Assembly: GCA_028280415.1 (NCBI GenBank)
Contig: JANQLV010000014.1
Location: 1-64,000, forward strand
Direction: 5' to 3'
DNA from: Saprospiraceae bacterium
Lineage (GTDB): Bacteria > Bacteroidota > Bacteroidia > Chitinophagales > Saprospiraceae
DNA length: 64,000 nucleotides
Shown here: piece after piece, positions 3,304 to 23,367 of the stretch
How the letters are laid out: the number at the start of each line of letters is the position of its first letter
Numbering within the stretch: position 1 is the stretch's first letter
Position numbers and translations under genes: made by a program
Notes under the pieces: model-generated
Seen by the model: only the letters and a program-made list of their open reading frames with translations
Told to the model about the DNA's origin: nothing
The model's database searches: none

Positions 3304-3335
3304 TTAAGTGAAGGTGTCATTTCATTTAGTGAATG
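3304..3335 (-). promoter_or_regulatory. Candidate LytTR operator: two direct repeats 21 bp apart
   Basis: On the + strand TTAAGTGAAGG (3304-3314) and TTTAGTGAATG (3325-3335) match at 9 of 11 positions and start exactly 21 bp apart. LytTR regulators such as AgrA bind 9-bp direct repeats separated by 12 bp, giving the same 21-bp period. The pair lies just upstream of a -33/-7-like pair (CTGG, 19 bp, TCTATTTG) for the 413-3232 gene. Regulation by the LytTR protein at 16109-16807 is inferred. Confidence 0.45.
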
Positions 3336-6565: not shown

Positions 6566-9500
6566 TTACTCAACCAAAACAAATCCTGCCCAATAATAAG
6601 GCTCATACTTCTCAGACATATCTCTCTGCGTTTTTATAAAAGCTTCTCGAATGGTATCATCATTTAAGTAATAACCATAGAAAATTTCCATAAACTTTAC
6701 TGTCTCATCATCTGGTATTTTCCAAAGCGACATGATGATTTTATCTACCCCCGCTTGTTTAAAAGCTCGTTGTAAACCAAAGACCCCTTCTGTGGATTCG
6801 ATATCTCCCAGGCCGGTATCGCAGGCAGATAAAACAACCAATTCTGTATTTCTTAAATCGAGGTTAACTATCTCATAAGAAGTAAGGATGCCATCATCGG
6901 CTCCTTCAGCTACTTTTCCACCTTTCCATGCATGATTAGCACCAGTGAAGACTAGACCGGAGCGCATTAGGGGCTGGTCAATTAAATAAGACATTTTGCT
7001 AAAACCTTGTAAGCTTGGTTTGTATAAATCGAGTTTATAAAACAAAGGATCTTGTGAGAGGTCTTTGAACTTATGCTGCTTTTCAGCCATTAAAAAGAAT
7101 CCATGTGTAGCAATGTGCAGGATGTGTGGAGAATTGCCAGACAGAAACTTTAGGTTTGTTTCCGTAGCCAATGCTCCTTGGAAATCTTGTGTCAACCAAT
7201 CAGAAGATTGAAATAATTCAGTAATGCTCTTGGTTTCCTCTATACTGCCATGAAGAGGTTGCCAGGCCCTTGTGAGTTTTCCTACTCTTTTGGGGAGACT
7301 GAATTGTTTGAGTTGCATTTGTGTTTTTGCGGTCTCCTCGATAGTGTTTTCTTCGTTTTCTATTTGGTCAAAGCTATTGCTACCAAAGCTTGAAATGGTA
7401 TAAGTATTTGCTCGACTTGGTTGTGTTCGGAGTTTGATTAAATCTCTAAGTGTTGTATATTGAGAAAGCTTATATTTTTCGCTTAATCTATTTCCTTCAA
7501 AATCAATCAAAAGGTGAAAAACAATACGATTAAGAAGTCCTGAGGGGGAATAATGAATACTAGTATACCCCTCTAAATGGGGTGACAAGGGTTTCCATAT
7601 TAGTTGATACAATTCACTTGCAAAATCATTATCAGTAATGTATGTTCCTCTTTCATTTGCTTTGTTAAAGGTCAGAAATTGCTTTAGATCTCTATCTAGA
7701 CAGAGCTCAACAAGTAGGGGATAGTTATCTTGAGGCCGAATAATTAAAGCTATGTAATATATGGAATCAGTAAAACTTCTTTTATTAAAGTATTTGACAC
7801 TCAAAAAAGAAATACCTGCTTCATCTTCTTTCAGATTCTTTTTAATGTCATGCCATTTGTATTGAAGGTTTTCAAATTGGTCTGCAAAAACTTGCGAATT
7901 TCTTACAAGTATTTTTTCTATGGAGTCAACTTGTGATTCTAAAACTTCTAATTTAAGACCCTGGTGATTCCTTGCATTTTTGCTCATAGTTAGAGCATCT
8001 GCGATTTGGCTTCGCTGCCTTTGCCATAATTCATAAAGTTTTAAATTGGTTGAATCTCCCGATTGAAGAATTGTTTGGCGTATATTCGAAACGGTGGATA
8101 AGATAAGCCCCTTGCTGCCTAGATTAAGATCCATTATTACACCCGGAAGTTCCGAAAAATCTTTATAATGTCGTATCCCGAAAGAATAATAAATTTGGAA
8201 TTGATCATCAATCTCGTTTTCTACAAATAGGAGTTTTTCTTTTTCATTCAAACCGGAATAATACCTAAGTATTTGATTTTGTAGATTATTTAATCCTGCG
8301 AGAAAATGAGATTTGGCTAATTCATAAAAACCTATATTTTCATAAAGAATCGCTAAACCATAAAGGCCATGAGCAAATAAAGGATGCTGTTCGCCAAATA
8401 ATTTAGCTGTTATTTCTTGGCATTCTTGATACAAAGGTTCGGCTTTTTCAAATAAGCCCATATTCAAATAAAGAAAGGCTTGGTTTCTCACGCTAGAGGC
8501 ATAATAAAAATGATCCTTGCCATATGCATCCTTAAAGATTGCCTTGCATTCCTTGTATAATGGTTCGGCTTTTTTGTACTGCCCCATTTTTGTATAAAAT
8601 CCCGCAAGGCTATTTAGGCTCGCGGCATAATCAGGATGCTTTTTACCAAGCAGGTTGGCCAAGATTCGTCTGCCTTTCTGATACGAATCTTCAGCTTTTT
8701 CATACAAACCCAATTTTTCATAAAGTCCTCCCATGCTAACTAGACTTCTGACATAATCTAGGTGTTCTTCACCCAAAACTTTCTTTAGGGTTCGTTGGCT
8801 TTCAAGATAAAGCGTTTGAGCTTTTTCGTACTGTCCCATTTTAATATAAAGGACAGCTAAATTATTTAATAAAGCAGCATAATCGGGATGTTCTTCACCC
8901 AAAACTTTCTTTAGAATTTGTCGGCTTTTTTGATATTGGGATTCAGCTTTTCCATACAAACCCAATTTTTGATAAAGTCCTCCCAGGTTAACTAGGGTGC
9001 TGCCATAATGTAAATGCTCTTCACCCAAAACGTTCTTCAGGATTCGTTGGCTTTTTTGATATTGGGCTATTGCTTTTTCAAATAACCCCATTGATTCATA
9101 TAATTGCCCTAGTTCCCCTAGGCAAATAGCAAACTGAGGATGTTCTTTACCCAGTATATTACCAATTATTTGCACACTTTCCTTTAACTGGTGTTCGGCT
9201 TTTTCATATAGGCCCAATTCTTGATAAAGCTTACCTAAACCAAATAAGGTTAAAGAATAATTGGGGTCATCAATGCACTGTGAATTAATCATGTTTTGCA
9301 GACTTTCTTTGTAAAGTTGTTCTGCTTCTTTTAATAAGCCTTTTTCCTTAAATATCCTTGCTAAATTATACAAGTTGGCGGCATAAAGGACATAGTCTTT
9401 GAATTGCAACTTTTCAATGATTTGAAGGCTTTCTTGGCATAAAGTCTCCGCTTCATCATACAATCCAATATTGAAACATATATTTGCCAATTCATGAAGA

Positions 9501-11278
9501 CAATAAATATAATCAGGATGTTGCCTACCAAGTACCTCGGTTCTAATTCTCAAACATTCTTGAATTAAAGGCTTGGCCTTTTGATAATGCCCTAATTGTT
9601 TATATAGTTTACCTAATGATAAAAGGATTGTCGCATACTCTGGGTGGTTCGTACCTAATGTTTCAGCAACAATTTTCCGGCTTTCCTGATATAATGTCTT
9701 TGCTTCTTCATAATGGTAGAGGTCATAGGAAAGAGTACCTTTTGCAAGGACGATAGCAGCATACTCTGGGTGGTTCGTACCTAATGTTTTGGCCATTATT
9801 TTCTGACTTTTATTGTATAAGGTCCTGGCTGCTTCATAACGGTCCCATTCATGATAAAGTGAACCTAAAGAAGATAGTATAGTGGCATACTCGGAATGGT
9901 CCGTACCATTTATTTTGCCTTCAATTTGTAAGCTTTCCTGATATAAGGTTTCTGCCTCTTGATAACGGCCCCACTCTTGATAAAGCATAGCTAAATTTTG
10001 CATAATCATTGGATATGAGGTATATTCTTTACCTGATGGATTTGCATATAACTGAAGTATTTCCTTATATAGAGGCTCCGCTTTTTCAAACAAATTCAAG
10101 GCTTTACATAAATTAGCCAGCCTATATAGGGTGTTTTTATAATTTTCATGTTCCCGACCTAATACTTTCGCTCTGATTTTCAGGCTTTCCTGGTAAAATG
10201 AAATAGCTTTTTTTAAAAACCCCATCTTTTCATTTAGTACGGCCAGATTATGAAGTGTAGTTGCATAAGAGGGATGTTCTTTATTAAGTACTTTGGCTGT
10301 AGTTATCAAACTTTTATAGTATAAAGAATCTGCCTTTTCGTAGAACCCTGTATTTTCATAGAAAAATGCCAGATTATTTAGGCCAATTGCATAAGACTCA
10401 CTTTCCTTTCCTCTTACCAAGGCTCTGATTTTCAGACTTTCCTGATAAAAATGTTCTGCTTTTTTATTCAAATTCATTTTTTGATATACAGATGCCAGGA
10501 GACCTGAGGTGACAGCATAATCATGATTTTGTTTTCCATATAACTGAGCTAATATTTTCAGGCTTTCCAGGTAGGAAAGCTCTGCCTTTTCATACATGCC
10601 TAAATTTTCATAAATGGAAGCCAGGTTTTCTAGGGAAAGGGAATAATTTATATGTAGTTTCCCAAATTCTATAGCTGCTTGCGCGAGCGCTTTTTTACAC
10701 CATAATCTCGCATTTTTATAATCTTCTTTTTGGAATAAAGAATAGGCTTTTTGATTGAGTTCTTCCAAATTCCAGCCTTCATTCATTTCTTTTATCAATC
10801 GCCCTGTATTATCCCAATATTTCCAATCACCTTTCCTTTGGCCGTCCTTGTATCGTCCTTTAATACTCAACTGACCATTTGGATGCCATGCATTATAAGC
10901 TCCATCTCGTTTACCAAAAATAAATGTGATTTGTTCTCTTTTCTGCCCATTCTCATAATACCATATGCAGTTACCATGTAGCATGTCCTCAAAAATATCA
11001 GCTATCAACTCCCCTTCCCATTGAATATTTCCAGATAGATAATAATTTCTAACTATCCCTAGTGGCGCCCCGTTTTCATAAGTTATCAAGCGATAATAAG
11101 TGATCGAATCAGGATCTTGAGTGAGGTTCCAATTCGGCGAATAAGTATATGTCCAGTGGCCATGTTTGTTACCATCTTTGTCATAAGCATTAGGAGATTT
11201 CGGAATACTTTGACTCAATACGAATATAGGTAGACATAGAAACACCAGCCATAGATTGGCTATGGTTGTATTTTTCAT
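6566..11278 (-). CDS. Exported MORN-TPR-CHAT protease-like protein
   Basis: A protein of 1570 residues from the ATG at 11278. That start gives a signal peptide ending IFVLSQS, and the upstream ATG at 11314 would overlap the preceding gene. Domains in order: signal; MORN_2-type repeats to about residue 170; about 20 tandem TPRs of 42 residues (about 185-1010; GLYEKAExLYxESLKI...LG.EHPxYA.xLxxLAxLYxxM); a helical linker; and a C-terminal CHAT domain. The catalytic residues are His1392 (LHIATHG) and Cys1486 (LSACDTG). It is probably periplasmic or surface-exposed. CHAT proteins are caspase/separase-like proteases often switched on by partners or by TPR-bound peptides; the target here is unknown. 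It is the last gene of the operon starting at 19120, 23 bp after the TPR gene at 11302. Confidence 0.9.
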   Translation of the reverse strand: MKNTTIANLWLVFLCLPIFVLSQSIPKSPNAYDKDGNKHGHWTYTYSPNWNLTQDPDSITYYRLITYENGAPLGIVRNYYLSGNIQWEGELIADIFEDMLHGNCIWYYENGQKREQITFIFGKRDGAYNAWHPNGQLSIKGRYKDGQRKGDWKYWDNTGRLIKEMNEGWNLEELNQKAYSLFQKEDYKNARLWCKKALAQAAIEFGKLHINYSLSLENLASIYENLGMYEKAELSYLESLKILAQLYGKQNHDYAVTSGLLASVYQKMNLNKKAEHFYQESLKIRALVRGKESESYAIGLNNLAFFYENTGFYEKADSLYYKSLITTAKVLNKEHPSYATTLHNLAVLNEKMGFLKKAISFYQESLKIRAKVLGREHENYKNTLYRLANLCKALNLFEKAEPLYKEILQLYANPSGKEYTSYPMIMQNLAMLYQEWGRYQEAETLYQESLQIEGKINGTDHSEYATILSSLGSLYHEWDRYEAARTLYNKSQKIMAKTLGTNHPEYAAIVLAKGTLSYDLYHYEEAKTLYQESRKIVAETLGTNHPEYATILLSLGKLYKQLGHYQKAKPLIQECLRIRTEVLGRQHPDYIYCLHELANICFNIGLYDEAETLCQESLQIIEKLQFKDYVLYAANLYNLARIFKEKGLLKEAEQLYKESLQNMINSQCIDDPNYSLTLFGLGKLYQELGLYEKAEHQLKESVQIIGNILGKEHPQFAICLGELGQLYESMGLFEKAIAQYQKSQRILKNVLGEEHLHYGSTLVNLGGLYQKLGLYGKAESQYQKSRQILKKVLGEEHPDYAALLNNLAVLYIKMGQYEKAQTLYLESQRTLKKVLGEEHLDYVRSLVSMGGLYEKLGLYEKAEDSYQKGRRILANLLGKKHPDYAASLNSLAGFYTKMGQYKKAEPLYKECKAIFKDAYGKDHFYYASSVRNQAFLYLNMGLFEKAEPLYQECQEITAKLFGEQHPLFAHGLYGLAILYENIGFYELAKSHFLAGLNNLQNQILRYYSGLNEKEKLLFVENEIDDQFQIYYSFGIRHYKDFSELPGVIMDLNLGSKGLILSTVSNIRQTILQSGDSTNLKLYELWQRQRSQIADALTMSKNARNHQGLKLEVLESQVDSIEKILVRNSQVFADQFENLQYKWHDIKKNLKEDEAGISFLSVKYFNKRSFTDSIYYIALIIRPQDNYPLLVELCLDRDLKQFLTFNKANERGTYITDNDFASELYQLIWKPLSPHLEGYTSIHYSPSGLLNRIVFHLLIDFEGNRLSEKYKLSQYTTLRDLIKLRTQPSRANTYTISSFGSNSFDQIENEENTIEETAKTQMQLKQFSLPKRVGKLTRAWQPLHGSIEETKSITELFQSSDWLTQDFQGALATETNLKFLSGNSPHILHIATHGFFLMAEKQHKFKDLSQDPLFYKLDLYKPSLQGFSKMSYLIDQPLMRSGLVFTGANHAWKGGKVAEGADDGILTSYEIVNLDLRNTELVVLSACDTGLGDIESTEGVFGLQRAFKQAGVDKIIMSLWKIPDDETVKFMEIFYGYYLNDDTIREAFIKTQRDMSEKYEPYYWAGFVLVE

Positions 11279-11301
11279 GATAATAAGTTTAAAATGATTA
11301 T

Positions 11302-12528
11302 TTACCGCTTCCATCTAAAAGCCCAATTGGTCCAACCTGCTACAGTATCTCGGCTATTGATCTGAAAGATAACCTTTGCATGTTTATAGACCATAAACTT
11401 TCCTCCGTTACCGATTGGATATTCTTTCCAAGGTTTCCAATATTTCACATCATATGGATCACTATTTAAATTCTTTTCTTGCAATTTTGGATCATCACCG
11501 AGAATTTCGTTTTCATGACTACCTATTTTAATCTTTCGAGCAGTTGCTCCAGTATAATTTGGAAGTGTTCTGTGGAATAAATATTGTTTTTCTCCTTTCT
11601 CTATACCAATAATGTAGGATTGTTGAAGTTTTTTGAGAGAAATAATAATATTAATTGAGAACTCATTTTCAAAGTTAACTTGTGTGCTATTTGATAATGC
11701 TTTAACGAACGATTTACGTAGTCTGATATCCTCGATTTTCTCTTTTAGTCCAGGGCGTATTATTTCTGGAGATTTTCTATTTGTACTTACTAAATTGGGG
11801 TCTTCATTAGCTATTTTGATGTTGTTTTCAATCATAGTAGTTTCAGAGAAGTTAAATAATTCAATGTTATTATCAAGGAGTTTTTTAGCTTCCAGTAACA
11901 TTTCATCTCTTTTATTGGTATCCTCTGTTAGGTCATATAATATTGCTAAAACAATATAAGCATTTGCTTTTGATCTTGGGCTTTTGGATAATTCGAGTGC
12001 TTTTATAGCTGCCTGATAAGCAGAAGCGTAGTCATCAGTTTTATTAAATCTCTGAGCTAATATTTTACACATAGCATAATTTAAATAAGCGGTATTCCAT
12101 TCTTTGTTTCTATTAATCACCTTTTGGAAAATTTTTTCTGCTTTATTTAACTGAATCCTGATTTGCTTTATTTCATCTTCAGTGTATGGAGAACTTCGTG
12201 TCCCTCGCACCCTATTTCTTACAGAAAGCTCAATTGGTATGTAGTATTTTAACTCATCACTCTTAAATTGATCTAATGCCGCTAGAGTGAAGTTCGCGGC
12301 AGCATTATTCAAGATCAATAGATCCCCCGGCTTTTCCTTCGATAAATAGTCATAGGCTTCAGCCGCCAACTCAAAATCTTCTACTAGGACAAGCATTAAA
12401 GCTAATTCTTCAATCAAATCTAATGATTTTGTTTTGCTGAAAGATTGTATGGATTGCCCGTAGATTAAATTATTTAGTAGCAAAAAAAGAATGAGCAATA
12501 GGCAATAACTAAATTTATATGTCTTCAT
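11302..12528 (-). CDS. Exported TPR-like protein of unknown function
   Basis: 408 residues with a clear signal peptide (YCLLLILFLLLNNLIYGQS). Residues about 35-230 are helical and TPR-like (EDFELAAEAYDYLSKEKPGDLLILNNAA; AEKIFQKVINRNKEWNTAYLNYAMCKI). The final 130 residues look beta-rich with many aromatics (YWKPWKEYP, GWTNWAFRWKR), and I do not recognise that domain. The start overlaps the end of the CHAT-STAND gene by 14 bp, which points to translational coupling. It lies between the intracellular CHAT-ATPase and the exported CHAT protein. An adaptor or substrate role in the envelope is conceivable but unproven. Confidence 0.7.
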   Translation of the reverse strand: MKTYKFSYCLLLILFLLLNNLIYGQSIQSFSKTKSLDLIEELALMLVLVEDFELAAEAYDYLSKEKPGDLLILNNAAANFTLAALDQFKSDELKYYIPIELSVRNRVRGTRSSPYTEDEIKQIRIQLNKAEKIFQKVINRNKEWNTAYLNYAMCKILAQRFNKTDDYASAYQAAIKALELSKSPRSKANAYIVLAILYDLTEDTNKRDEMLLEAKKLLDNNIELFNFSETTMIENNIKIANEDPNLVSTNRKSPEIIRPGLKEKIEDIRLRKSFVKALSNSTQVNFENEFSINIIISLKKLQQSYIIGIEKGEKQYLFHRTLPNYTGATARKIKIGSHENEILGDDPKLQEKNLNSDPYDVKYWKPWKEYPIGNGGKFMVYKHAKVIFQINSRDTVAGWTNWAFRWKR

Positions 12529-15500
12529 CTTTATTTGGTTTAAAAGTGTGATAAGCTTGTTCGAACTGATCGATTATTCTATGAGGATCAATTAATATTA
12601 TTTGACATTTATTGTGATTGTCTAAGACTATTATTTTATCACCATTTTCTGAATAGAAAGCGTCTAATATAATATGATCAAAGACAAAGCTGGTTAACCA
12701 TTCCCCCTTTCGATTCCAGATTCTCACAGTGTGATCACTTGAGGCAGTAACAATCCAATTACCGTCATGAGAAAAGTGAGCCTCGTTTACTGGCCCAAAA
12801 TGATACAGTACCATAGGTTTTTGAGTAGATAGCTTTTGATCAGAATTCAAATTAAACAGATACGCATTTTTATCACTACAGGCAATTAATAACTCTGTAC
12901 CATCAGGAGAAAATTCAATAGCATTAATGGTTTCTTTAAATCGTATGGAATCAAACAGTATCTGACTTTCCCAATCCCATAATCTTAATATTTGATCGGC
13001 ATGTGCTGTTGCTATCGTTGGTCGCTTTCCTGTATGTGCAGCACTATGGGTGAGGTAGTTTTTACTAGCTCCAACCTCAGTAATGATTTCTTTGTTTTTT
13101 GAATTGTAAACATTGACTGAACCGAACCTTTCTACTATTAGAAAATAATTTGTTGAATGATTTCCCTTGACTGGGATAGCCTCTTTAGAATTTTTGTTTC
13201 TAAAATTATCAATCCTTTCAGATTTATATGAGCCATCATTATATTCCCATAGCCTTACTCCTTTATCTGATGCAACTATAAAATTATTACTCTCATTAGC
13301 TAAAAAAGTTATTTGATTAATGTTCCCCTGATTGGTATTTAACGTTCGAATAAGTTCACCCTCTTTTGTCCAAAACTTGAGGATTCCTTTTTTACCCCCG
13401 GCAGTGATAATTGTGTCAGAGGGAGAAATTGCTACTGCTTCTACAATTTCATTATTAAGTGTTTTTTTCTGCCATCTTGCCCAAACTTGACTATTGCCTA
13501 GTTTATCTGTGATAATGAATGCAGAGGCGTCCTCGGAAAAACTTATAAGTTTTGGGTTGAATTTAAGTTTAAAGAAATATATAGCCTGAACATTATCTCG
13601 CTGCCATATGAAACCTTCTTTTTCTTGCTTAAAATAAACCAATACAAAGGAATTGTCTATTGAAATATCAATTAAAAGATTTTCCTTTTTTAAAAGAAAT
13701 GGATTTCCTAATGGAAACTTTATTTTTCCCCAAACTATTCCATAATGTTTAACAATCCAAAAGTCTGTATTTAGTGTATCTTTTTCAATTTCTATATTCT
13801 TTTGTGGCTTTGCCCCTAGTTCTGAGTTGAAAATTTTTAGCGGCAAAAATTGATTCAAGTCAATTAAAGCATTCATTGTCTGTAGATTTGAATCAAGAAG
13901 AAATGCTTCTTTTGAGCGTTTAAAAGCTGGCCATAGGTTGTCTGGATTTTGAGCTACCAGTTTTTTGGCAATCAATGCTTTTGAAACTGCATCAAATTCT
14001 AGTGATTTCTCAGCTACCAGTTTTTTCTCTAATTGCCAGAATCTGAAAATAGTAAATAGTATAGCTATGGTAATAACCGATAAAAATAATAAAATTCTAT
14101 TTCTCCATTTTTTCCTTGATATAGACTTATCGCTATTTTTAATTAATAATTCTTCAAGACTACTTGGATGTCGCATTCCACTTTTCCCCTCATTCACAAT
14201 CGCCAAATCTTTACTAGAAAGTAATGACCATTCTTCCTCAGGATAATTTGATAATTCGCGGCTCTCTAGTATCCGAATAGCTCGTTGACCAATCGCATTT
14301 GATTCATTAAACCGATTATATATAATAGGAGCTAGAGTATCGTGAGCTAGTCTGGTGTCTCCATGAACATCCAGTAATAAGTAATTATCTTTTAGCTGTT
14401 CAAGGAGTTCTATCGTATCTTTAGGGACATGCTTATACCTTTCTTTAATCTCTAATTGACTCCTTTGTTGAGGCGATTCAAAAGTGCTAACATGGAACTT
14501 TAATAGATCTAAAGCCAGGCCATTATCTTGGTATTTAGGTGTTATTTTTTTTAATTGCTGTTTTAAGAAATCAGTTAACCAAAGGCCTTCGGTTTTTATC
14601 TCGTAATATGCCTCTAAGGCAAATATGGGATTATCTGGGTTAGCTTTTATTGCCTTTTGCCATAGTTTGAATAAGAGTATTTGTAAAGTTGGAGCTATTG
14701 AAGCGGGAGCAGTACCATTAACTAGATCATAGGCAATTTCCTTGGGCAGTTCAGGATTGATATCTAAACCATAATGATTTTTTAATCTTTCACTATTATA
14801 AATACCTGAAACAGCCTCAATGATTCCCTTTCTATTAAGAGATTGGATGAATACCTTGGTGTAATTTAAATTATATTCTTGCAATAAACTTTCAAAGTCT
14901 GCTAGATGCTCTTTTCGAAGCGATAAAACAAACTTTCCTTTAATACTTTTATCATCATCATTAAAACAATGATTAAGTAATGATACAAGCATCTTTCTCT
15001 CATGATGATTTGAGTGAATTGGATTTGTTATGATTCCTTCAACCTGATCAAGGATAAATGTAAATACGTTATTTTTCTCTTCTTTAATCCAATAGGTTTT
15101 TATCTTTTTAGGAAGCTCACTACTAAAAGCCTGTATAAAATTTTCTCCAATCCCTTTTTTTAGATCTCTTCGTTCGTATTGAACAGTTTGTTCTTGTCTC
15201 AATCTTGGCAATAAACCTGCTTCTAGTAAAGAAGATTTTCCTACGCCGGACTGTCCGTATAGTAAAACAATTGGAGCAGATTTTACATCCGTTATCTGCA
15301 TGTAAAGTCTTCTAATTTCTTGTCCTCTTCCAAAGAAGATTTCAGCATGTTTTTCTGTAAACCACTTAAGGTTCGGGAAAGGGCAGGTGGGAAGTATCTT
15401 CTGAGGAAGCTCTGGTAAGCCGAAAAGAGGATTATTGACGGCCTCTGGTAAACTCCAGTATTTTGATTCTTCTGCTCCGGGTCTAGATCGAAACTTCCAA

Positions 15501-16099
15501 GGTAAGAAACCTGTTTTTTGCTTTTCGTTAAGCACTACATCGTCGCGTCTCTTTTTACTTTTTATAGATTGCGTTATGGAAGAAGCTTCATTAAATGCTC
15601 TAACCAATGAAGTTCCTCCAGCCAAGCTATGATAAAATTTAATAGCAAAATCCTTTGCAAGTTCATCATAAATCAGAGAAGAAGTAGCTATAACATTTTG
15701 TACATTATTTCTAAAGTATTTTTCTACTTGCCCATAGGTAGAGCAGCCATTTAGAAATAAAAGCTTTAGTCCTTTTTGTTCTCCTAAGAACTTGGAAAAA
15801 TATTCCACATCAATGGCTCCAGATTCTAATATCATTTCCAGACTATTAGCATGTCCTGCAAAATGAAATATTGCAATTCTGTCACGGTACAATTCGGAGT
15901 TGGTGAAAACTTCAAAAATGTGTTCAGCTTTTTCTACAGACTTTACAATGACCTCACATAACCCTTTTGCTTTAGCATTTAGTAGTATCTTATTTAATTC
16001 ATCTCTCTCTTCTCTTAATCCTGGCAAGTGTTTATCCTTACTTAGCTGGTCATTAGCTATAGCTATAAATACAATGGGAGGTTTATTTTGGCTAAACAT
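12515..16099 (-). CDS. CHAT-STAND ATPase-WD40 protein
   Basis: 1194 residues without a signal peptide, so cytoplasmic or anchored by one central helix. Residues 1-200 form a CHAT domain with His83 (FAGHAN) and Cys119 (LNGCSTYGQ). Residues about 240-600 are a STAND P-loop ATPase: Walker A GQSGVGKSS at 282-290, and an aspartate of the Walker B kind at 351 (FILDQVEG). A likely membrane helix is at about 667-688 (ILLFLSVITIAILFTIF). Residues about 860-1175 carry WD40-type repeats (HSAAHTGKRPTIATAHADQ, VRIWNRKGEW). This is the classic conflict/cell-death layout: a C-terminal repeat sensor, an NTPase switch and a protease effector. It lies 9 bp downstream of the LytTR regulator and overlaps the next gene by 14 bp. 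The ligand and the cleavage target are unknown. Confidence 0.9.
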   Translation of the reverse strand: MFSQNKPPIVFIAIANDQLSKDKHLPGLREERDELNKILLNAKAKGLCEVIVKSVEKAEHIFEVFTNSELYRDRIAIFHFAGHANSLEMILESGAIDVEYFSKFLGEQKGLKLLFLNGCSTYGQVEKYFRNNVQNVIATSSLIYDELAKDFAIKFYHSLAGGTSLVRAFNEASSITQSIKSKKRRDDVVLNEKQKTGFLPWKFRSRPGAEESKYWSLPEAVNNPLFGLPELPQKILPTCPFPNLKWFTEKHAEIFFGRGQEIRRLYMQITDVKSAPIVLLYGQSGVGKSSLLEAGLLPRLRQEQTVQYERRDLKKGIGENFIQAFSSELPKKIKTYWIKEEKNNVFTFILDQVEGIITNPIHSNHHERKMLVSLLNHCFNDDDKSIKGKFVLSLRKEHLADFESLLQEYNLNYTKVFIQSLNRKGIIEAVSGIYNSERLKNHYGLDINPELPKEIAYDLVNGTAPASIAPTLQILLFKLWQKAIKANPDNPIFALEAYYEIKTEGLWLTDFLKQQLKKITPKYQDNGLALDLLKFHVSTFESPQQRSQLEIKERYKHVPKDTIELLEQLKDNYLLLDVHGDTRLAHDTLAPIIYNRFNESNAIGQRAIRILESRELSNYPEEEWSLLSSKDLAIVNEGKSGMRHPSSLEELLIKNSDKSISRKKWRNRILLFLSVITIAILFTIFRFWQLEKKLVAEKSLEFDAVSKALIAKKLVAQNPDNLWPAFKRSKEAFLLDSNLQTMNALIDLNQFLPLKIFNSELGAKPQKNIEIEKDTLNTDFWIVKHYGIVWGKIKFPLGNPFLLKKENLLIDISIDNSFVLVYFKQEKEGFIWQRDNVQAIYFFKLKFNPKLISFSEDASAFIITDKLGNSQVWARWQKKTLNNEIVEAVAISPSDTIITAGGKKGILKFWTKEGELIRTLNTNQGNINQITFLANESNNFIVASDKGVRLWEYNDGSYKSERIDNFRNKNSKEAIPVKGNHSTNYFLIVERFGSVNVYNSKNKEIITEVGASKNYLTHSAAHTGKRPTIATAHADQILRLWDWESQILFDSIRFKETINAIEFSPDGTELLIACSDKNAYLFNLNSDQKLSTQKPMVLYHFGPVNEAHFSHDGNWIVTASSDHTVRIWNRKGEWLTSFVFDHIILDAFYSENGDKIIVLDNHNKCQIILIDPHRIIDQFEQAYHTFKPNKDEDI

Positions 16100-16108
16100 A
16101 TTTTGGGG

Positions 16109-16807
16109 TTAAAAACTACTGCCTAGTTTTCGTAAAAAGTCATCTAGTTTAGGTTTAGATACACTTAATTTTTTACCATCTTTCATTTCTAAATACCCCC
16201 CATCACTTTTGTGAAATGCCAGTACGAAATCTAAGTTTACTACAGCACTTCGAGAAATTCGATGAAAAGAGTCTTTAGGTAACATTCCTTCTATAGATTT
16301 TAAAATCTTTACTGTTAAATAAGGTTTTTTACCATCTCTATGAATTATTGTATTTACGTTATCTGCCAGGCAGTACATGATCTCTTTAGTATGTATAACT
16401 ACCTGACTGCTACCATCAGGGACTAAGATGCGGGGAATATCTTTCGAGGTTTGAATTCTTTCTGCTGCTGATCGGACCGCATTTTTTAATTCAGAGGGTC
16501 TTACAGGTTTCAATAAATAATCGATTGCACTCGTGCGAATCGCATCAATAGCGAACTCATCATGAGCTGTAATAAAAATTATTTCAAAGGGTATTTGCTG
16601 AACTTTACTAAGCACATCAAAACCGGTCATAGTTCCTAAATTGATATCGAGGAAAACCAATTGAGGTGCTTTATTCCTAATTGATCGAACGGCTGTTTCG
16701 CCAGTTTCGCATTTATCAATGATTTCTATTTCCGGACAGTGTTTTTTCAGTTTGAGTACGAGATTTTGCATTCCTTCTTCTTCGTCCTCGACAATGATTG
16801 CTCTCAT
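16109..16807 (-). CDS. LytTR-family response regulator
   Basis: 232 residues. The N-terminal receiver domain carries the acidic pocket (VEDEEEG), phospho-acceptor Asp54 (VFLDINLG) and the conserved Lys near 103 (LLKPVRPSE). The C-terminal LytTR DNA-binding domain spans about 130-232 and contains FHRISRSAVVNLDFV. Its start shares a base with the stop of the histidine kinase (TAATG), so the pair is translationally coupled and almost certainly cognate. LytTR proteins bind direct repeats two helical turns apart. Such repeats occur at 3304-3335 and 19312-19339 and, weakly, at 6458-6489, which suggests it regulates the island. Confidence 0.93.
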   Translation of the reverse strand: MRAIIVEDEEEGMQNLVLKLKKHCPEIEIIDKCETGETAVRSIRNKAPQLVFLDINLGTMTGFDVLSKVQQIPFEIIFITAHDEFAIDAIRTSAIDYLLKPVRPSELKNAVRSAAERIQTSKDIPRILVPDGSSQVVIHTKEIMYCLADNVNTIIHRDGKKPYLTVKILKSIEGMLPKDSFHRISRSAVVNLDFVLAFHKSDGGYLEMKDGKKLSVSKPKLDDFLRKLGSSF

Positions 16808-18813
16808 TAGCTTTGGGTTTTTAATTTAGTAATACTTGGGAATCTAATGATTATCCGTGTGCCACAGGCTTGCTTTTTATGATTAAATAAGTCAATTATT
16901 TCGAATTCTGCCCCTTTGATTTTTTTTATGGACTCAATACGTTCTTTAGTAATATTAATTCCCCAGGAGGGACGATCTACCATAGATTGTATTTTAAAAG
17001 CCTTTGCTTTTTCTCTACCAATTCCATCATCTTCTACGATACACTCAATAATGTTAGATGAAGTTTTTTTAATGCTAATTAGGATATGTCCCGGGGCTTG
17101 TTTTTTTTGAATACCGTGAACAATTGAATTTTCAATGAAAGGTTGTAAAAGCATTGGTGGAATTTGTATCTCATCAATATTTAGTCCTTTTTGTATGTCA
17201 AAACTATAATTAAGGTTTTTACGCATTCGTAATTTTTCCAAAGAAAGGTAATAACTAAGTGTTTCAATTTCCTTTTTTATACTAATCAAATCTTTTTTTG
17301 AATTGCTTAGAATGAGTCTACATAAGCGGCTAAAATCAATGATGTATTCTGATGCTTCTTCATTTCTTCCTTGATTTATTAATGAATCAATTGCATTTAG
17401 ACTATTGGAAATAAAATGTGGATTCATTTGAGAACGCAGGGATTCCAATCGCATGGATAATTGATTGTTGAGGAATCTAATCCTAGAACGTTGGAATAAT
17501 GCGACGAAGAAAATTATAAGACCAATGAAGGAAATAATACTCCAAATAATAATTCGTTGCCTTTCCCGATTTGCCTGTTCTTCTTGAAAAACCTCCATTT
17601 TTTGAGAAGCGATATTTAACGCAATAGTCGTGCTATCAACAATTGCTTGATAAGAACTAGAAGTTTTGGCTAATAAATTTTGACATTTATTAAAATCTAT
17701 TTTTAGACAAATTTTTGAAATTTCTTGTGCCGCTTTTTCAATATACTTTGTGTTTTTTTCCTTGACACCAATCTCAAGAACCTTTTCATAGTGAAAACTT
17801 GCTGAATCAAATAATACTTTACTTATTGGCTTATTATAACTCGCTAGGTTTTGAAAATTAGCTCCATATTGAAAATGTATTTCTGTAATCTTTAAGGGAC
17901 CCAGTGACATCGCTTTGAAAAGAAACTGGTTGCTTTTGTCAAACCATTTTTTTTCTTTTGAGGCTTTGAATCGATTCGCTAAAAAAGTTGCATAATCTAA
18001 GTAAATACTAGCTTTTTGAAAATTATTACCTGCTGAATTGTATAAATTAATTGCTTTTTGGAATGCTGAATCAGCCAGGCTTAGCTCTTTTCGGTTCTCA
18101 TAAATTATTGCGTAATTATTCAGTAATCTTGCTAAACTACTGGTGTCTTGGATTAGCTTGTAACATCTATAACTTAAGTCAAAATAATATAAGACAGTAT
18201 CTGTATTTTTAGAAGTATATAGTTCAATGTTCCCAGCTGTGCGAAAAACGTCAGCCCATATCTTTGGGTGATTTTCTGGAGCTAAATTATTTTCTTTTAA
18301 TACTTGCTGCGACTTTTTATTATAAATAGCCCCTGTCGGTTCATCATATAAATTATAATGTATTAAGGCTCTCAGGTTTAAAGCCCTACTCAGCCAAAGC
18401 GGCTTATTTAATTTCTCAAATAATTCAATGCTTATTTTTACATCAGCCAAGGCTTTTTGAAGTTGAATGTTTTGAGGATCCTCCTGGTTTAAAATAAAGG
18501 CCTTCCAGTACAACGATGTAGCTTTTTCGGCTCTTAAATTCGTGCCTTCAGATAACTGCTCTGCTAGTCTGGCAAGTTCTAAACTATACTGTGCCTGAGT
18601 ATTCAAATATTGTTCAGAAAGTTTGAGTAAGAAAGCAATTTGTTTTTTTTTGTGTTTAAAATTATTCAGCTTTTGCCAGGTACTATCCGGAATAGTAAAT
18701 GAATTGCCTGAGCTGGTACCCACTAGTGGCAATGGCTCTTTTTTTTGCATGCAACTAATAAATAGTAATAAGCTAATGATCAATAAAATAAACCTCGGAT
18801 TATATATTTGCAT
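16807..18813 (-). CDS. LytS/YehU-type histidine kinase with TPR sensor
   Basis: 668 residues. An N-terminal hydrophobic segment ends at a lipobox-like LLFISC, then comes a TPR-like extracytoplasmic region (about 40-395). One transmembrane helix follows (IIIWSIISFIGLIIFFVALF), then a His_kinase domain with His466 in QMNPHFISNSLNAID. The HATPase domain contains PPMLLQPFIENSIVHG and DDGIGR. It phosphorylates the adjacent LytTR regulator. The exported TPRs imply that the signal is a peptide or protein in the periplasm, possibly a product of the exported CHAT proteins; this is inference. The gene lies 7 bp after the 99-aa gene and overlaps the regulator by one base. Confidence 0.92.
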   Translation of the reverse strand: MQIYNPRFILLIISLLLFISCMQKKEPLPLVGTSSGNSFTIPDSTWQKLNNFKHKKKQIAFLLKLSEQYLNTQAQYSLELARLAEQLSEGTNLRAEKATSLYWKAFILNQEDPQNIQLQKALADVKISIELFEKLNKPLWLSRALNLRALIHYNLYDEPTGAIYNKKSQQVLKENNLAPENHPKIWADVFRTAGNIELYTSKNTDTVLYYFDLSYRCYKLIQDTSSLARLLNNYAIIYENRKELSLADSAFQKAINLYNSAGNNFQKASIYLDYATFLANRFKASKEKKWFDKSNQFLFKAMSLGPLKITEIHFQYGANFQNLASYNKPISKVLFDSASFHYEKVLEIGVKEKNTKYIEKAAQEISKICLKIDFNKCQNLLAKTSSSYQAIVDSTTIALNIASQKMEVFQEEQANRERQRIIIWSIISFIGLIIFFVALFQRSRIRFLNNQLSMRLESLRSQMNPHFISNSLNAIDSLINQGRNEEASEYIIDFSRLCRLILSNSKKDLISIKKEIETLSYYLSLEKLRMRKNLNYSFDIQKGLNIDEIQIPPMLLQPFIENSIVHGIQKKQAPGHILISIKKTSSNIIECIVEDDGIGREKAKAFKIQSMVDRPSWGINITKERIESIKKIKGAEFEIIDLFNHKKQACGTRIIIRFPSITKLKTQS

Positions 18814-18820
18814 AAAGGCA

Positions 18821-19120
18821 TTAAGACTGATTTTTAAATTCTGCTATTTCGATTTCTAAGCGTTCTACTAGTGTTAATAATTCTTCAATTAAATTTCTAA
18901 GAGATTCTGAAAGTATATTATTTAAGTTAATATTTACTCGGTAGAAGGCTGCATTTTCTGTTCCATCTGGTCTTGGCCTGAGTTCTCTGTTTTCTGCCTC
19001 TGTATTTTCGGCATAAATAATCAAGTCTTGAATGATACGTCTGGTAGTATCATCTTCAATAGAGCTGATTTCAGCTAAAATTGCGGTTTTGTACTGAGCG
19101 ACAGTGTTAAAGGTAGACAT
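18821..19120 (-). CDS. 99-aa helical protein, first gene of CHAT operon
   Basis: No family recognised. No signal peptide or membrane segment. The chain is predominantly helical and acidic. Residues 1-55 form a compact helical block (YKTAILAEISSIEDDTTRRI), a Pro/Arg-rich turn follows (ELRPRPDGTEN), and the C-terminal 40 residues show coiled-coil heptads (LRNLIEELLTLVERLEIEIAEF). It is promoter-proximal and only 7 bp from the kinase gene. Small helical proteins next to caspase/CHAT/STAND genes are often adaptors or effector-associated domains, so an adaptor or inhibitor of the protease components is a reasonable but unproven guess. Confidence 0.6.
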   Translation of the reverse strand: MSTFNTVAQYKTAILAEISSIEDDTTRRIIQDLIIYAENTEAENRELRPRPDGTENAAFYRVNINLNNILSESLRNLIEELLTLVERLEIEIAEFKNQS

Positions 19121-19463
19121 AGTAATTTCGTTTAAGGTTTTAAAAAATTGTCTTGTTCTTTCGTAAGATAAGTCGCTTTTTTAAAATACCCCAAGTGTTA
19201 AAAGTGAATCACACTTCTAGTCAAGGGGGGACTTGATTTGGTTTAGTGAGAATAAAAGCATAAAAAGAAGTAATTGTTTGATTAAAAATACTGACTAAAT
19301 TAAATAGTCACTTCACTTGATCAATCCAAGGATTCACTTTATGACTAGAATCATACTACAACAGGTCGCTTATATTCGTGATATATAAAAATACAATTTA
19401 AAAAACTAAATGCGGTGCTAGTAATTATTAATTTAGACTAATTGAACTTAAAAATAAAGTTAT
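19121..19463. promoter_or_regulatory. Divergent control region rich in AGTG boxes and inverted repeats
   Basis: This is a 343-bp gap between the CHAT operon (minus) and the caspase gene (plus). AAAGTGAATC (19201-19210) is the exact reverse complement of 19331-19340, and TTCTAGTCA (19215-19223) of 19342-19350. TTCACTT occurs at 19312-19318 and 19333-19339, exactly 21 bp apart. AGTG also occurs at 19194, 19203 and 19245; the last two are 42 bp apart. Further symmetry: TGACTA/TAGTCA at 19292-19310, the palindrome TTGATCAA at 19317-19324, and TCAAG/CTTGA at 19221-19236. A TATATTCG (-7-like, one mismatch to TAnnTTTG) is at 19371-19378 for the caspase gene. I infer LytTR operators serving both directions. 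Confidence 0.5.
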
Positions 19464-21497
19464 ATGACTTCTGAAAAACGTAAAAATGAAGGGGCTGAGG
19501 ATCGAAATATTTATGTGCTTTCTATTGGAATTAATAAATATAAAAGTCCAGAAATAAGAAATTTAGGTGGTTGTGTAGATGATGTTAATAAGTTGAAAAA
19601 GTTTTTGCAAGCTAAATTTTCAATTTCAGATGCTCATTACAAAACAATTACTGATGAAGAGGCAACAAGACAAGGTATTATCAGGACTTTTCGTAATCAC
19701 TTTAGCCATTTAAAAGATGGAGATATTGCATTGCTCCATTATAGTGGACATGGTTCTTGGGAAATAACTTCAGAAGAGTTTGCTAAAGCAGGGTTAGAGC
19801 CTCCAGGAGGAAGAAATGAATTAATTGTTTGTCAGGATAGTGATGATCCAGGTGTTTTTAATATAGCAGATAAAGAACTAAGAATGCTTATTTCTGAGGT
19901 ACAATTTCCACGAAATGAAAAGCCTAAGAATATTCACTTTGTTTGTCTCTTTGATTGTTGCCACTCCGGTTCCTTAATTCGAGAAGATGATGAAAAGATA
20001 AATGTCAGAATGATATCAAGAAGAAAAGAACCAAGACCTTTGGATGCATATTTAGAAGGTCAGTATTCTTTAATGAAGGGAATCACCTTGCCTTCTGTAA
20101 ATTATATTTCTTTAACGGCTTGTGCGCCAAGAGAATCTGCCATTGAGGATCGAAATGGAGGTTTGTTTACCAATGCCTTAATCCGTGTTCTTAATACTAC
20201 ACTCAGAGGAGGATATATACCAAGTTATTCTGAATTACATGCTATCGTTCGAGAAATAACTAAGAAAAATGCCAGAAATAAGCAGACGCCCCATTTTGAA
20301 TATGCAGGGAATATAAATCCTTTTGATTCCTTTTTATTGCAGGGAGAAACAAAAAGGAACCATTATCCAGAGCTAATATTTAAAGATGGAGAATGGCAAA
20401 TAGAAAGGGGAGCCATTCATGGGATTGATTTTGATAGTGTGAAAAAATTAGCTATTCCTATCTTTAAGCATTCAGAGCCTGAAAAAATAATAGCTTATGC
20501 CAAAGTTAATAATGTAGGGTTAGAGTACACAGCTTTACAGCTGAATGAGATAGATGCTGTTAAATTAAATACTGAAAATACTTATTTGATTGCTTTAACA
20601 GGGACTCCTTTACCTCTTAAAATTACAACTGAAGCCACTGGACTTTTAGTTCGTAATAAGTTAATGAAGGAATTTTTGAATGAGAAAAATAACTATAAGT
20701 TCTTATTAACGGAGATAGCTAATTATGAATTGAGGATATCCGAAAACCAATTATGTATTTTTAATCAAAATATAGATGTCCCACAATTGATATATGGAAT
20801 CCGGCAGGTTGATGAATCAGCTATCCAACATATAATTGAACAATTATCTAAGATTAGTCGATGGGAACAGGTCAACTCAGTTTATACTCCTTTGCGTACT
20901 TCCATAGACCCAGATCAGCTTGATTTAAAATTTCAATATGAAGACTATAATGGAGTGCTTCATACACATAGCTTTGATACTGCTGAAAATGAAGATTCAA
21001 AAACCTTTCAAATTACGCTATCATACGATAAAGAACAAGGTGGTATCCCTTATTCTTTCAAGGTTATGAACAATACTGATCATAAGCTCTTTTATTATCT
21101 GATCCATTTAAAGAGTCATTATGCTATATCTCAAAAATATGAGGCTTATCTAAAGGAGGTTTATTCAAAAGAGATCATTGAACTTTATGATTCTACCAGC
21201 AATAATACTGGTTTAGGTATAGCAGATAATTATCAGAATGAAATTCAGGTTACTTTTCTTCTTATTACTTCTCGGACAAAGCTCAATATTCCATACGTTT
21301 TTGAACAGACTGGATTTGGTGCGTGTTTTGGACAGATTGTAGATTCTCTGGAGGAGTGGGAGGAGCGTTCTCCAAGAGGAATAAAGAGGGATGTCGCTTT
21401 GAAAAATCGTTCTAATGTGAATTGGGCTGTTAAAAGAGTAGAAATCAAAATCACATCCCAGTCATCCGTTTCAGCGTATCAAAAAAGGCCTGATTAA
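19464..21497 (+). CDS. Caspase-family (C14) protease
   Basis: 677 residues with no signal peptide, so probably cytoplasmic. Residues about 15-320 are a prokaryotic caspase domain: YVLSIGINKY strand, His96 in HYSGHGSW, and catalytic Cys166 in FDCCHSGS. Residues about 350-670 are an unassigned beta-rich region (FKVMNNTDHKLFYYLIHLKSHY) of the sort that carries sensing or substrate functions. It is transcribed away from the CHAT operon across a shared control region, which suggests joint regulation. The last 16 codons (21451-21497) lie antisense inside the 3' end of hsdR, so the original C-terminus may have been replaced when the restriction island arrived. Confidence 0.88.
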   Translation: MTSEKRKNEGAEDRNIYVLSIGINKYKSPEIRNLGGCVDDVNKLKKFLQAKFSISDAHYKTITDEEATRQGIIRTFRNHFSHLKDGDIALLHYSGHGSWEITSEEFAKAGLEPPGGRNELIVCQDSDDPGVFNIADKELRMLISEVQFPRNEKPKNIHFVCLFDCCHSGSLIREDDEKINVRMISRRKEPRPLDAYLEGQYSLMKGITLPSVNYISLTACAPRESAIEDRNGGLFTNALIRVLNTTLRGGYIPSYSELHAIVREITKKNARNKQTPHFEYAGNINPFDSFLLQGETKRNHYPELIFKDGEWQIERGAIHGIDFDSVKKLAIPIFKHSEPEKIIAYAKVNNVGLEYTALQLNEIDAVKLNTENTYLIALTGTPLPLKITTEATGLLVRNKLMKEFLNEKNNYKFLLTEIANYELRISENQLCIFNQNIDVPQLIYGIRQVDESAIQHIIEQLSKISRWEQVNSVYTPLRTSIDPDQLDLKFQYEDYNGVLHTHSFDTAENEDSKTFQITLSYDKEQGGIPYSFKVMNNTDHKLFYYLIHLKSHYAISQKYEAYLKEVYSKEIIELYDSTSNNTGLGIADNYQNEIQVTFLLITSRTKLNIPYVFEQTGFGACFGQIVDSLEEWEERSPRGIKRDVALKNRSNVNWAVKRVEIKITSQSSVSAYQKRPD

Positions 21498-23367
21498 ACG
21501 CATCATCTTTGACATAAAGTCGATACAAATCTAACTCTGTTTTCCGCTGACGGGACATGACTTCATCCAGGATTTTCCGCAGCGCTAAATCTTTATTCTG
21601 CTCGTCTTGGTTGTCGGCTACTTTAGTTTTGAAATCGGGGTGGGCTTTGATAGATTCACTTAGATTAATAAATTTTACGCGCTGATCTTCGGGCGTAGCA
21701 TCCCAGCCTTGAAACCATCTTTCGTTAAATGATTTTATAATCTCTTCTAGCAGGTCTTTTTCCTCTTGTCCTCCATGTGCACCACGCGGATTAGGATTTT
21801 GCGGGTCTAATTCTGCTTCCGAGGCATCTAGTTTTATAGCTTCGTTTAGCTTAACTCGCTCTAAACCGTAAGTAGATAAGTCAACTGAATTTAATAGTCC
21901 GTCTATTAGATCATCCGCTCCGCTTTTCACGACTAAATGTGGGATTAAGAATTTTAGAAACCAAAACAATTTTTCCCATTTTAATACTTCGTAGGGTAGG
22001 ATAGAGGCCATCTGTCCGTAGATTTTGACAAATTGCTTGGCCTTGATTTTAAAGTCCGCTTTTTCATCATCCTCTAAGTTTAGTGAGTCATTGAAGCGTT
22101 CTGCCGCAGTTGCGATGATGGGACTGAGTTCTTGTGCGTCGACACCGGCAAAATACTTGGCTACAAAATCTTCTACTTCTGCCCATTCATAGACACCGAC
22201 TTCATCCAGGCTACCTTTTAGTTCATGCAAAACATTTACATCAGTCGCTTCGCTCAAGGTCGTAGCTGTATAAAAAGGATCGAAGGCTGTTTTTATTTCT
22301 TTAGTCGTGTTGAAAAAGTCTAGGATAAAAAGGTCTTCAGTTTTTTTGCCTAGTTTATTGGCAGAACGATTTAAGCGAGAAAGAGCCTGTACTGCTAAAA
22401 CACCTTGGAGCCTTTTGTCGATAAACATGGTACACAGCTTCGGCTGGTCAAAGCCTGTGAGGTATTTATTGGCCACGACGAGAAGTCGATACTCATCCAT
22501 GTCAAAATAACGGGCTAGCTTGTCGCTAATATATCCTGGATTAGAAGGTTTGGCGGTATCGAGCTTGGCAGGCATATCATTGATACTTTCTTCCATGTAT
22601 TCTATGCCTTTAATTTTCTTTTTGCCAGAGAAGGCAACCAGTATCTTAAAGGGATTTCCTTTATCGTCCAGGATTCGATTCAAGGCTTGAAAGTAAAGAA
22701 TGGCCGATTTGATACTTTGTGTTACGACCATGCCTTTTGCTTTGCCTTTTAGTTTTTTGCTCGTATAGACTTTGCGGAGAAAATGATCGAGCATGACTTC
22801 CGCTTTTGTACCGATCGTTTGTTGATGACTTTCTACATAAGCCTTTAATTTTTTTTGCGCTTTCCTGGTATTGAAGAGGGGATTCTCTGCAATGGATTTT
22901 TCAATCTCATAATAGCTTTTGTAGGTGGTGTAGTTGGCCAGTACATCTAGGATGAATCCCTCCTCAATAGCCTGCTTCATGGAGTATAAATGAAAGGGCT
23001 CGAATTTACCATCTGCTTTTTGGGTGCCGAATCGTTCTAAAGTAGCGGGCTTAGGTGTAGCCGTGAAGGCTAGATAAGAAGCATTACCTCGCATCTTACG
23101 TGCTTTCATTGCTTTGATAATCCTATCCTGCACATCTTCGGGCTCTTCTTCCTCTCTTGTTGTTTGTCCCATGGCCTGATTCATCTTTCCGGCAGCCGTT
23201 CCACTTTGTGAGCTATGCGCTTCGTCGATTACTACCGCAAATCGCTTATCACTCAGATCAGCAATACCGCCAACGATAAAAGGGAATTTTTGAATCGTCG
23301 TGATAATAATTTTCTTGCCTTGCTCTAAGCTATCCCGCAGGTCTTTAGAAGAGTAGGCTGGAGCAAC
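21451..23367 (-). pseudogene. hsdR: hsdR type I restriction subunit, C-terminal fragment
   Basis: This is the second frame of a broken hsdR. It begins at a frameshift near 23367 with VAPAYSSKDLRDSLEQGKK and continues through the DEAH box (VVIDEAHSSQSG) and helicase motifs (AFTATPKPATLERFG; VANKYLTGFDQPKLCTMF; ALSRLNRS) to the helical C-terminal domain. The first possible internal ATG is at 23184, after the DEAH box. HsdR is the ATP-dependent translocase and nuclease of type I systems. Its stop lies 47 bp inside the caspase gene on the opposite strand. Codon use is somewhat GC-richer than the CHAT island, which fits separate acquisition. Confidence 0.88.

Follow-up and report, generated by a model that had tools for sequence, protein, structure and literature searches.

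A caspase gene diverging from a small operon for a 99-amino-acid protein (P99), a sensor kinase and a LytTR response regulator forms a gene unit that occurs in several genera of one family of the order Saprospirales. We describe it from a Saprospiraceae bacterium (GenBank assembly GCA_028280415.1), in a 64,000-nucleotide stretch, here the window, that comprises positions 1-64,000 of contig JANQLV010000014.1 and begins at the contig start. The caspase faces P99 in eight of the nine family genomes that bear P99, across seven genera and including the cultured Lewinella cohaerens DSM 23179, and the two genes lie 53-480 bp apart. Both kinase and regulator are seen in six of these eight genomes.

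Conservation of the divergent unit

The original prediction, made from the letters of the window, had joined this unit with a CHAT-STAND-WD40 gene, an exported 408-amino-acid protein (P408) and an exported TPR-CHAT protein into one signalling or cell-death island, and had named conserved gene order as the check. Gene order upheld the caspase/P99-kinase-LytTR core, on the counts given above, and did not uphold P408 or the exported TPR-CHAT. We searched 298 family genomes with the CHAT-STAND part and with the caspase, scoring up to three candidates per genome; Lewinella, which NCBI places in Lewinellaceae of the order Saprospirales, was treated as one family with the others. The CHAT-STAND part matched in at least 61 genomes at 1e-20 and the caspase in at least 93 at 1e-15, the own genome counted in both. 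Forty neighbourhoods were fetched and annotated with profiles seeded by the genes of the window: those of the 20 top-ranking CHAT-STAND matches, of the top caspase matches and of three genomes chosen for holding both (G026, G153 and G191). Among the matches listed, the best 20 caspase loci after the window include seven that face P99, all in the best eight, and 13 in which a CHAT or a STAND gene is at most 6.1 kb away.

The full order of a caspase facing P99, kinase, regulator and CHAT-STAND-WD40 is present in two genomes of one genus, both Lewinella (G257 and G301). The gap from regulator to CHAT-STAND is 30 and 33 bp in these two and 9 bp in the window, and these are the three loci where CHAT-STAND directly follows the regulator. 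G193 and G047 carry the caspase and the P99-kinase-regulator cassette with STAND or CHAT genes at greater distance, and G017 has the same genes with a CHAT gene beside the caspase. The contig of G147 ends inside the kinase that follows P99, and in G039 the caspase and P99 are followed by a transposase (read by eye) and then the contig end. The ninth P99 genome, G165, has P99, kinase and regulator, with CHAT-STAND 3.2 kb from P99. Seven of the nine cassettes have a CHAT gene nearby, and the remaining two are cut by contig ends.

A profile built from the nine P99 proteins matched 9 of the 298 family genomes, in 8 of 112 genera, the nine genes matched being the nine used for the profile, which had been reached via caspase or CHAT-STAND loci. 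A sample of the order gave three clear matches in 298 genomes, all in the same family, plus two weak ones, and a sample of the phylum gave one in 296 (the own genome) plus one weak. Around the three weak matches, no kinase, regulator or caspase profile match was seen in the open reading frames (ORFs) shown.

The own genome (7.1 Mb, 81 contigs) holds 22 CHAT, 43 LytTR, 6 Peptidase_C14 and 94 receiver hits, and the abundance of CHAT and LytTR means that some neighbours are possible by abundance alone. Chance clustering of these families is nevertheless a very improbable account of the locus, as the caspase faces P99 in eight genomes whose cassette caspases are only 29-48% identical to one another. 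Conservation across genera rejects chance for the core but not for P408 and the exported TPR-CHAT genes.

Caspase genes of this genome also lie near receiver domains beyond this locus. Four of five caspase loci (from six hits, the two on contig C21 counted once) are within 3.5 kb of a receiver hit, against a background of 8.4% (binomial p 2e-4); with the window left out the count is three of four (p 0.002), and cut-offs of 2 and 5 kb give three and four of five (p about 0.001). The other receiver-near loci are on C21, C18 (two LytTR regulators and a caspase) and C66. The C21 locus shows that this genome also couples a caspase to a two-component system of another kind: a TPR kinase (HisKA_3), a receiver protein and a 670-amino-acid caspase paralogue stand in a row (L051:4702-9595; G000:C21), with 9 bp between regulator and caspase. 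A general tie of CHAT genes to response regulators was considered and rejected, since one of the 22 CHAT hits in the genome, the window's own, lies within 3.5 kb of a receiver.

Components of the unit

Searches of Pfam, PADLOC, NCBIfam and PHROGs assigned P99 to no family. It is modelled as four helices with a predicted local distance difference test score (pLDDT) of 84, and assignment to a known fold was rejected, the top PDB match having E 1.2 by fold and E 0.97 by sequence. Hydropathy gives no transmembrane (TM) segment in any of nine P99 proteins. In all eight loci that show both, the P99 and kinase ORFs, with starts called mechanically, overlap or lie at most 7 bp apart, a spacing that suggests P99 is probably translationally coupled to the kinase. 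One of the weakly P99-like sequences is a 79-amino-acid ORF (L292:8112-8666; G832:C12) whose N-terminal hairpin matches at E 9e-7 among local ORFs and 0.005 in the genome search, and which directly precedes an ORF that we take to be a RelE/ParE-like toxin. P99 and antitoxins may have such a helical hairpin in common.

At its N-terminus the kinase carries a hydrophobic signal of lipoprotein-like appearance (read by eye), followed by a TPR-like sensor (a weak Pfam TPR_12 match), one TM segment (residues 421-439) and a LytS-type kinase domain. Among eight aligned kinases the N-terminal hydrophobic segment is found in five at the threshold used, and hydropathy places one TM segment ahead of the kinase domain in all seven full-length copies. 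The PF06580 kinase adjoins the REC-LytTR regulator with a 1-bp overlap, as expected of a LytS/LytTR-type two-component system, and the combination of such a kinase with a LytTR regulator is shared with LytS-LytR and BtsS-BtsR. The predicted LytS character holds for the kinase domain and not for the sensor, where a TPR-like region and one internal TM segment stand in place of the LytS-type multi-TM domain. The island differs from LytS-LytR and BtsS-BtsR in this sensor, in the P99 gene in front and in the caspase facing it, and the BtsR model scores the window regulator at 99 bits, below its cut-off of 246. The regulator is 44-58% identical to six regulators of other cassettes. In a class-wide kinase search, again with up to three candidates scored per genome, the matches listed were mostly confined to the kinase domain, and a few (for example G341:C48) extended further into the sensor.

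The caspase dyad His96/Cys166 is invariant in all 18 aligned sequences, window included. An AlphaFold model (pLDDT 82) best matches metacaspase 9 in PDB (E 1e-13), with GSU0716 and yeast Yca1 also found, and a C-terminal region of about 380 amino acids extends beyond the Peptidase_C14 domain. On motif and model, the protein is of the caspase/metacaspase (C14) fold with a His-Cys dyad, and protease activity is predicted. Against the NCBIfam model of the EACC1-associated caspase (NF047832) it scores 43.9 bits, under the cut-off of 140. No TM segment was found by hydropathy in eight cassette caspases.

CHAT-STAND and other neighbouring genes

The CHAT part of the window STAND protein scores 21 bits, under the Pfam cut-off of 24, and an orthologue passes at 25.4 bits. 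A His83/Cys119 dyad is present in all 23 aligned CHAT-STAND ORFs, the window included. The window protein has a Walker A motif at residue 282 and a TM segment (669-687) between NTPase and WD40, and hydropathy places a TM segment there in all eight CHAT-STAND proteins examined. A caspase match lies within 3.4 kb of 11 of 23 ORFs with CHAT and STAND, a set in which L156 had been chosen for carrying both CHAT-STAND and a caspase.

That CHAT-STAND belongs to one system with the kinase was borne out in part: it directly follows the regulator in the three loci described above, and its homologues are usually found without kinase and regulator. A receiver lies within 5.6 kb of only 4 of the 23 ORFs (window included; several are cut by contig ends), and in L130, beyond those four, a LytTR-only protein lies about 2 kb from CHAT-STAND. 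Thus, CHAT-STAND is a frequent but modular partner of the caspase/two-component unit. These counts favour an alternative in which the system consists of the caspase and the two-component cassette alone, with CHAT-STAND, P408 and the TPR-CHATs as mobile modules gathered by shuffling. The pairing of CHAT-STAND with P408 in two loci without a kinase (G004 and G032) points the same way, as do the 22 CHAT hits of the genome, with which chance proximity is not rare. Against it stand the short gaps between regulator and CHAT-STAND in the three loci and the adjacency of caspase and CHAT genes in several phyla, and we regard the shuffling account as possible but on balance improbable.

P408 had been predicted to be an exported TPR protein; a Pfam scan gives it no match of its own, and its homologues show weak TPR only. 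In G004 and G032 it shares 4 bp with the end of CHAT-STAND, and it matched in 18 of 99 genomes, the own included, the rest being weak. Its profile had no match in the other eight cassette stretches, a negative of limited reach: five of them run on for less than 2 kb beyond the cassette or CHAT-STAND, and only G257, G193 and G165 were covered further. In P408's place, G257 has a 281-amino-acid exported protein and a WD40-caspase protein after CHAT-STAND. By gene neighbourhood, P408 is a partner of CHAT-STAND in loci without a kinase and not of the cassette. Homologues of about 530-620 amino acids were seen at L041-L048 and L055-L058; in several of these loci their neighbours are exported proteins with CHASE2, WD40 and caspase-TPR genes. 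In Lewinella cohaerens, CHAT-STAND is followed by a gene (L120:15225-16070) whose product has a signal-peptide-like N-terminus of repeated Thr-Leu (TLTLTLTLTLT), where variation in repeat length is possible.

The gene layout of the window is given in Table 1. ORF calls bear out the genes and strands of the original prediction, with Pfam support for kinase, regulator, nSTAND1/WD40, caspase and TPR-CHAT, and the predicted gaps of 7, -1, 9 and -14 bp are as measured. The fifth gap, given as 23 bp, holds if translation of the 1582-amino-acid TPR-CHAT begins with the second Met (residue 13), which stands just ahead of the signal peptide, and is -13 bp from the first ATG. The island reaches further left than had been proposed, with three extra minus-strand MORN/TPR and CHAT ORFs up to the contig start.

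Table 1. Genes and control region of the island, in window positions
Feature	Position	Strand	Basis
Caspase (Peptidase_C14)	19464-21497	+	Pfam 4.5e-20
Shared divergent control region between P99 and caspase, 343 bp, 27% G+C	19121-19463	.	
P99, 99 aa (amino acids), small four-helix protein, first gene of the operon	18821-19120	-	Model; no library match
Sensor kinase, LytS-type	16807-18813	-	Pfam His_kinase 3e-22
LytTR response regulator (REC + LytTR)	16109-16807	-	Pfam Response_reg 3e-19, LytTR 8e-14
CHAT - nSTAND1 NTPase - TM - WD40	12515-16099	-	Pfam nSTAND1 2e-28 plus WD40
P408, 408 aa, exported (signal-peptide-like N-terminus)	11302-12528	-	ORF
Exported MORN-TPR-CHAT, 1582 aa	6566-11314	-	Pfam CHAT 1.2e-54, TPR, MORN_2
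MORN/TPR protein, 517 aa	4822-6375	-	Pfam
CHAT protein, 475 aa, TTG start	3419-4846	-	Pfam CHAT 8e-50
TPR-CHAT protein, 939 aa	413-3232	-	Pfam CHAT 4e-51

The exported 1582-amino-acid MORN-TPR-CHAT is probably on the same transcript here. It is one of the 22 CHAT hits of the genome, and the exported TPR-CHATs are part of a large paralogous set; an exported counterpart was found only in G193, where a gene 1.9 kb beyond the regulator, on the opposite strand, encodes a 940-amino-acid CHAT protein. We read P408 and the exported TPR-CHAT as local additions outside the core. The island's three further CHAT ORFs show His-Cys motifs. The MORN/TPR and CHAT ORFs to the left overlap by 25 bp and resemble one TPR-CHAT gene split in two.

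A plasmid search with the island gave no match. PADLOC, run on seven island proteins (the three left-hand ORFs not included), reported no complete named defence system; it matched a generic caspase model (2.5e-25) and gave weak matches for the regulator and the STAND protein. To the right, the caspase ORF is convergent with a type I restriction HsdR gene, their ends overlapping by 47 bp. HsdR is split over two ORFs (21451-23184 and 23325-24524) and adjoined by a TmtA-like protein (24517-27699; PADLOC 1.6e-204) and an HsdS-like ORF (27701-28543); together these look like a decayed defence locus.

Caspase-CHAT neighbourhoods extend well beyond the family. A caspase profile scan of named genomes gave 79 loci, with a caspase ORF called in 75; among these 75, from several phyla, a CHAT gene lies within 3.5 kb in 35, a receiver in 7 and P99 in 7. 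The seven P99 loci (Saprospiraceae, Saprospirales and Lewinella) are the records G017, G257, G301, G193, G047, G147 and G039, with none new. The caspase-CHAT neighbourhood is widespread, occurring in cyanobacteria, proteobacteria, acidobacteria, planctomycetes and Bacteroidota, and input through P99, kinase and regulator seems to be a variant at the level of the family. Within the family, caspases of 1095-1211 amino acids recur beside separate CHAT (about 580-620 amino acids) and STAND genes (L146, L153, L154, L155 and L157); in the vicinity of several of them a cyclase-like gene and one for a small membrane protein were read by eye. In one Calditrichia and one further Bacteroidetes metagenome-assembled genome (L207:4724-13393 and L209:4568-13510), 559 and 754 bp separate a caspase from a receiver-bearing giant protein of about 1560 amino acids.

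A proposed circuit and its relation to known systems

We lean somewhat towards a reading in which a dedicated two-component system that senses the envelope controls the caspase, and CHAT-STAND serves as a second key. From hydropathy and usual orientation, we infer a position outside the inner membrane for the TPR-like sensor and for the WD40 propeller, with CHAT, NTPase, caspase and P99 inside. The sensor would detect envelope state or a partner, and the kinase, assisted by P99, would phosphorylate the LytTR regulator. The regulator would bind the shared control region and set transcription in both directions, towards the caspase and towards P99, kinase and regulator (plus CHAT-STAND where present). 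Sensing by WD40 outside the membrane would lead the NTPase to oligomerise and free CHAT, which would cleave the caspase zymogen or share its substrates. The most likely outcome would be controlled cell damage or death, or the release of a stress response; we infer this function, whether death, defence or stress, as well as the joint action of the genes. A stricter version, in which a death or immunity switch is gated twice, with the P99-tuned kinase and LytTR regulator setting caspase dose and a STAND-fired CHAT protease activating the caspase, is one that we consider possible but less likely than not.

The control region offers a lead, not evidence, on regulator binding. TTCACTT occurs there at 19312(+) and 19333(+), 21 bp apart, and at 19202(-), and a spacing of 21 bp recalls LytTR sites. 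The exact double site occurs once in the genome, in this region, and one of the matches with one mismatch lies at 3306-3333, upstream of the 939-amino-acid TPR-CHAT. A regulator-binding repeat was not established in the window, as the best repeat with 20-23-bp spacing was matched by 24 of 300 shuffles.

Several observations weigh against control of the caspase by this two-component system with CHAT-STAND as second key. LytTR-type repeats are at background in the other seven control regions, where no cross-locus motif search was made, and the double site with one mismatch allowed has 10 matches in the genome and 10 in the control. As the P99 profile matched the set from which it was built, a diverged P99 without a caspase could be missed. 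In G165, no caspase profile match lies within at least 16 kb on either side of the cassette. In G239, on a contig of 5 kb, the closest caspase (60% identity over 345 residues) faces CHAT-STAND directly, and neither kinase nor regulator intervenes. The small number of CHAT-STAND ORFs with a receiver nearby, given above, is a further point of this kind. In favour of the reading stand the facing caspase at eight of the nine P99 loci, the receivers near caspases in the own genome, the close P99-kinase junctions, the CHAT genes near cassettes and caspases, and correlated protein distances. The latter correlate for caspase and kinase (r 0.88, 1 of 5040 permutations), caspase and regulator (r 0.91, 4 of 720), caspase and P99 (r 0.78, 12 of 40320) and kinase and P99 (r 0.83, 1 of 40320); against this, these correlations may partly reflect species relatedness, no housekeeping gene having been compared.

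The same arrangement could serve regulated proteolysis, with the caspase or CHAT trimming the kinase or regulator for envelope adaptation and no cell death. A caspase without a TM segment that faces the cassette in eight of nine loci would suit such a role, and regulation of a sensor kinase by proteolysis reportedly has a precedent in VgrS (PMC6237974). However, STAND NTPases with proteases are described as death or defence switches in the parts available of PMC7159879 and PMC8195603, and we consider trimming distinctly unlikely.

No such caspase/P99-kinase-regulator cassette is named in the literature searched, and no description of two-component signal input for caspases was found there. SAVED-CHAT, in work ascribed to Steens in 2024, reportedly has a prokaryotic caspase as its target. 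In the accessible text of two reports, the SAVED-CHAT of type III-B CRISPR is a CHAT protease with a sensor that gives immunity via a proteolysis cascade (PMC11229360, PMC11417357), and this precedent underlies the CHAT-driven cascade in our proposal. SAVED-CHAT has a SAVED/cA3 sensor and CRISPR, whereas the island has nSTAND1-TM-WD40 and a two-component system. In the Pfam results shown for 17 proteins (25 of 39 families in the case of the STAND protein) there was no SAVED, and no Cas protein was among the Pfam hits of these proteins, no CRISPR search having been made. The TPR-CHAT of Craspase (Csx29) resembles the 1582- and 939-amino-acid proteins in the fusion of TPR to CHAT; the island differs in this lack of Cas among the hits and in the signal-peptide-like N-terminus of the 1582-amino-acid protein.

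Caspase and STAND NTPase genes are linked in operons of bacteria of multicellular habit, Bacteroidetes included, in the available parts of Kaur 2020 (PMC7159879) and Kaur 2021 (PMC8195603). As described there, those conflict systems use shared effector-associated adaptor domains. None was found here: P99 is a separate gene whose profile matched only its own ORF in the annotated 30-kb stretch of the window, and other adaptor families were covered as far as Pfam and NCBIfam hold them. LytTR has no occurrence in the available text of either paper. Asplund-Samuelsson 2012 (PMC3501461), in its accessible part, reports 23 bacterial metacaspase operons with signalling, sensor or regulatory domains, and 28 metacaspases in Haliscomenobacter, of the same order Saprospirales. 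Unlike the island, no two-component system or response regulator is named in that part (0 occurrences); a divergent neighbour would escape the operon-partner count of such a survey.

To our knowledge, bacterial caspases are plentiful and few have known inputs. The conserved unit ties one caspase to one sensor kinase, in a cultured strain among others, and makes the question of caspase activation testable. Additionally, it gives a context for the caspase-CHAT neighbourhood that recurs across phyla. If the proposed control is true, a caspase cascade would be wired to a two-component system in these bacteria.

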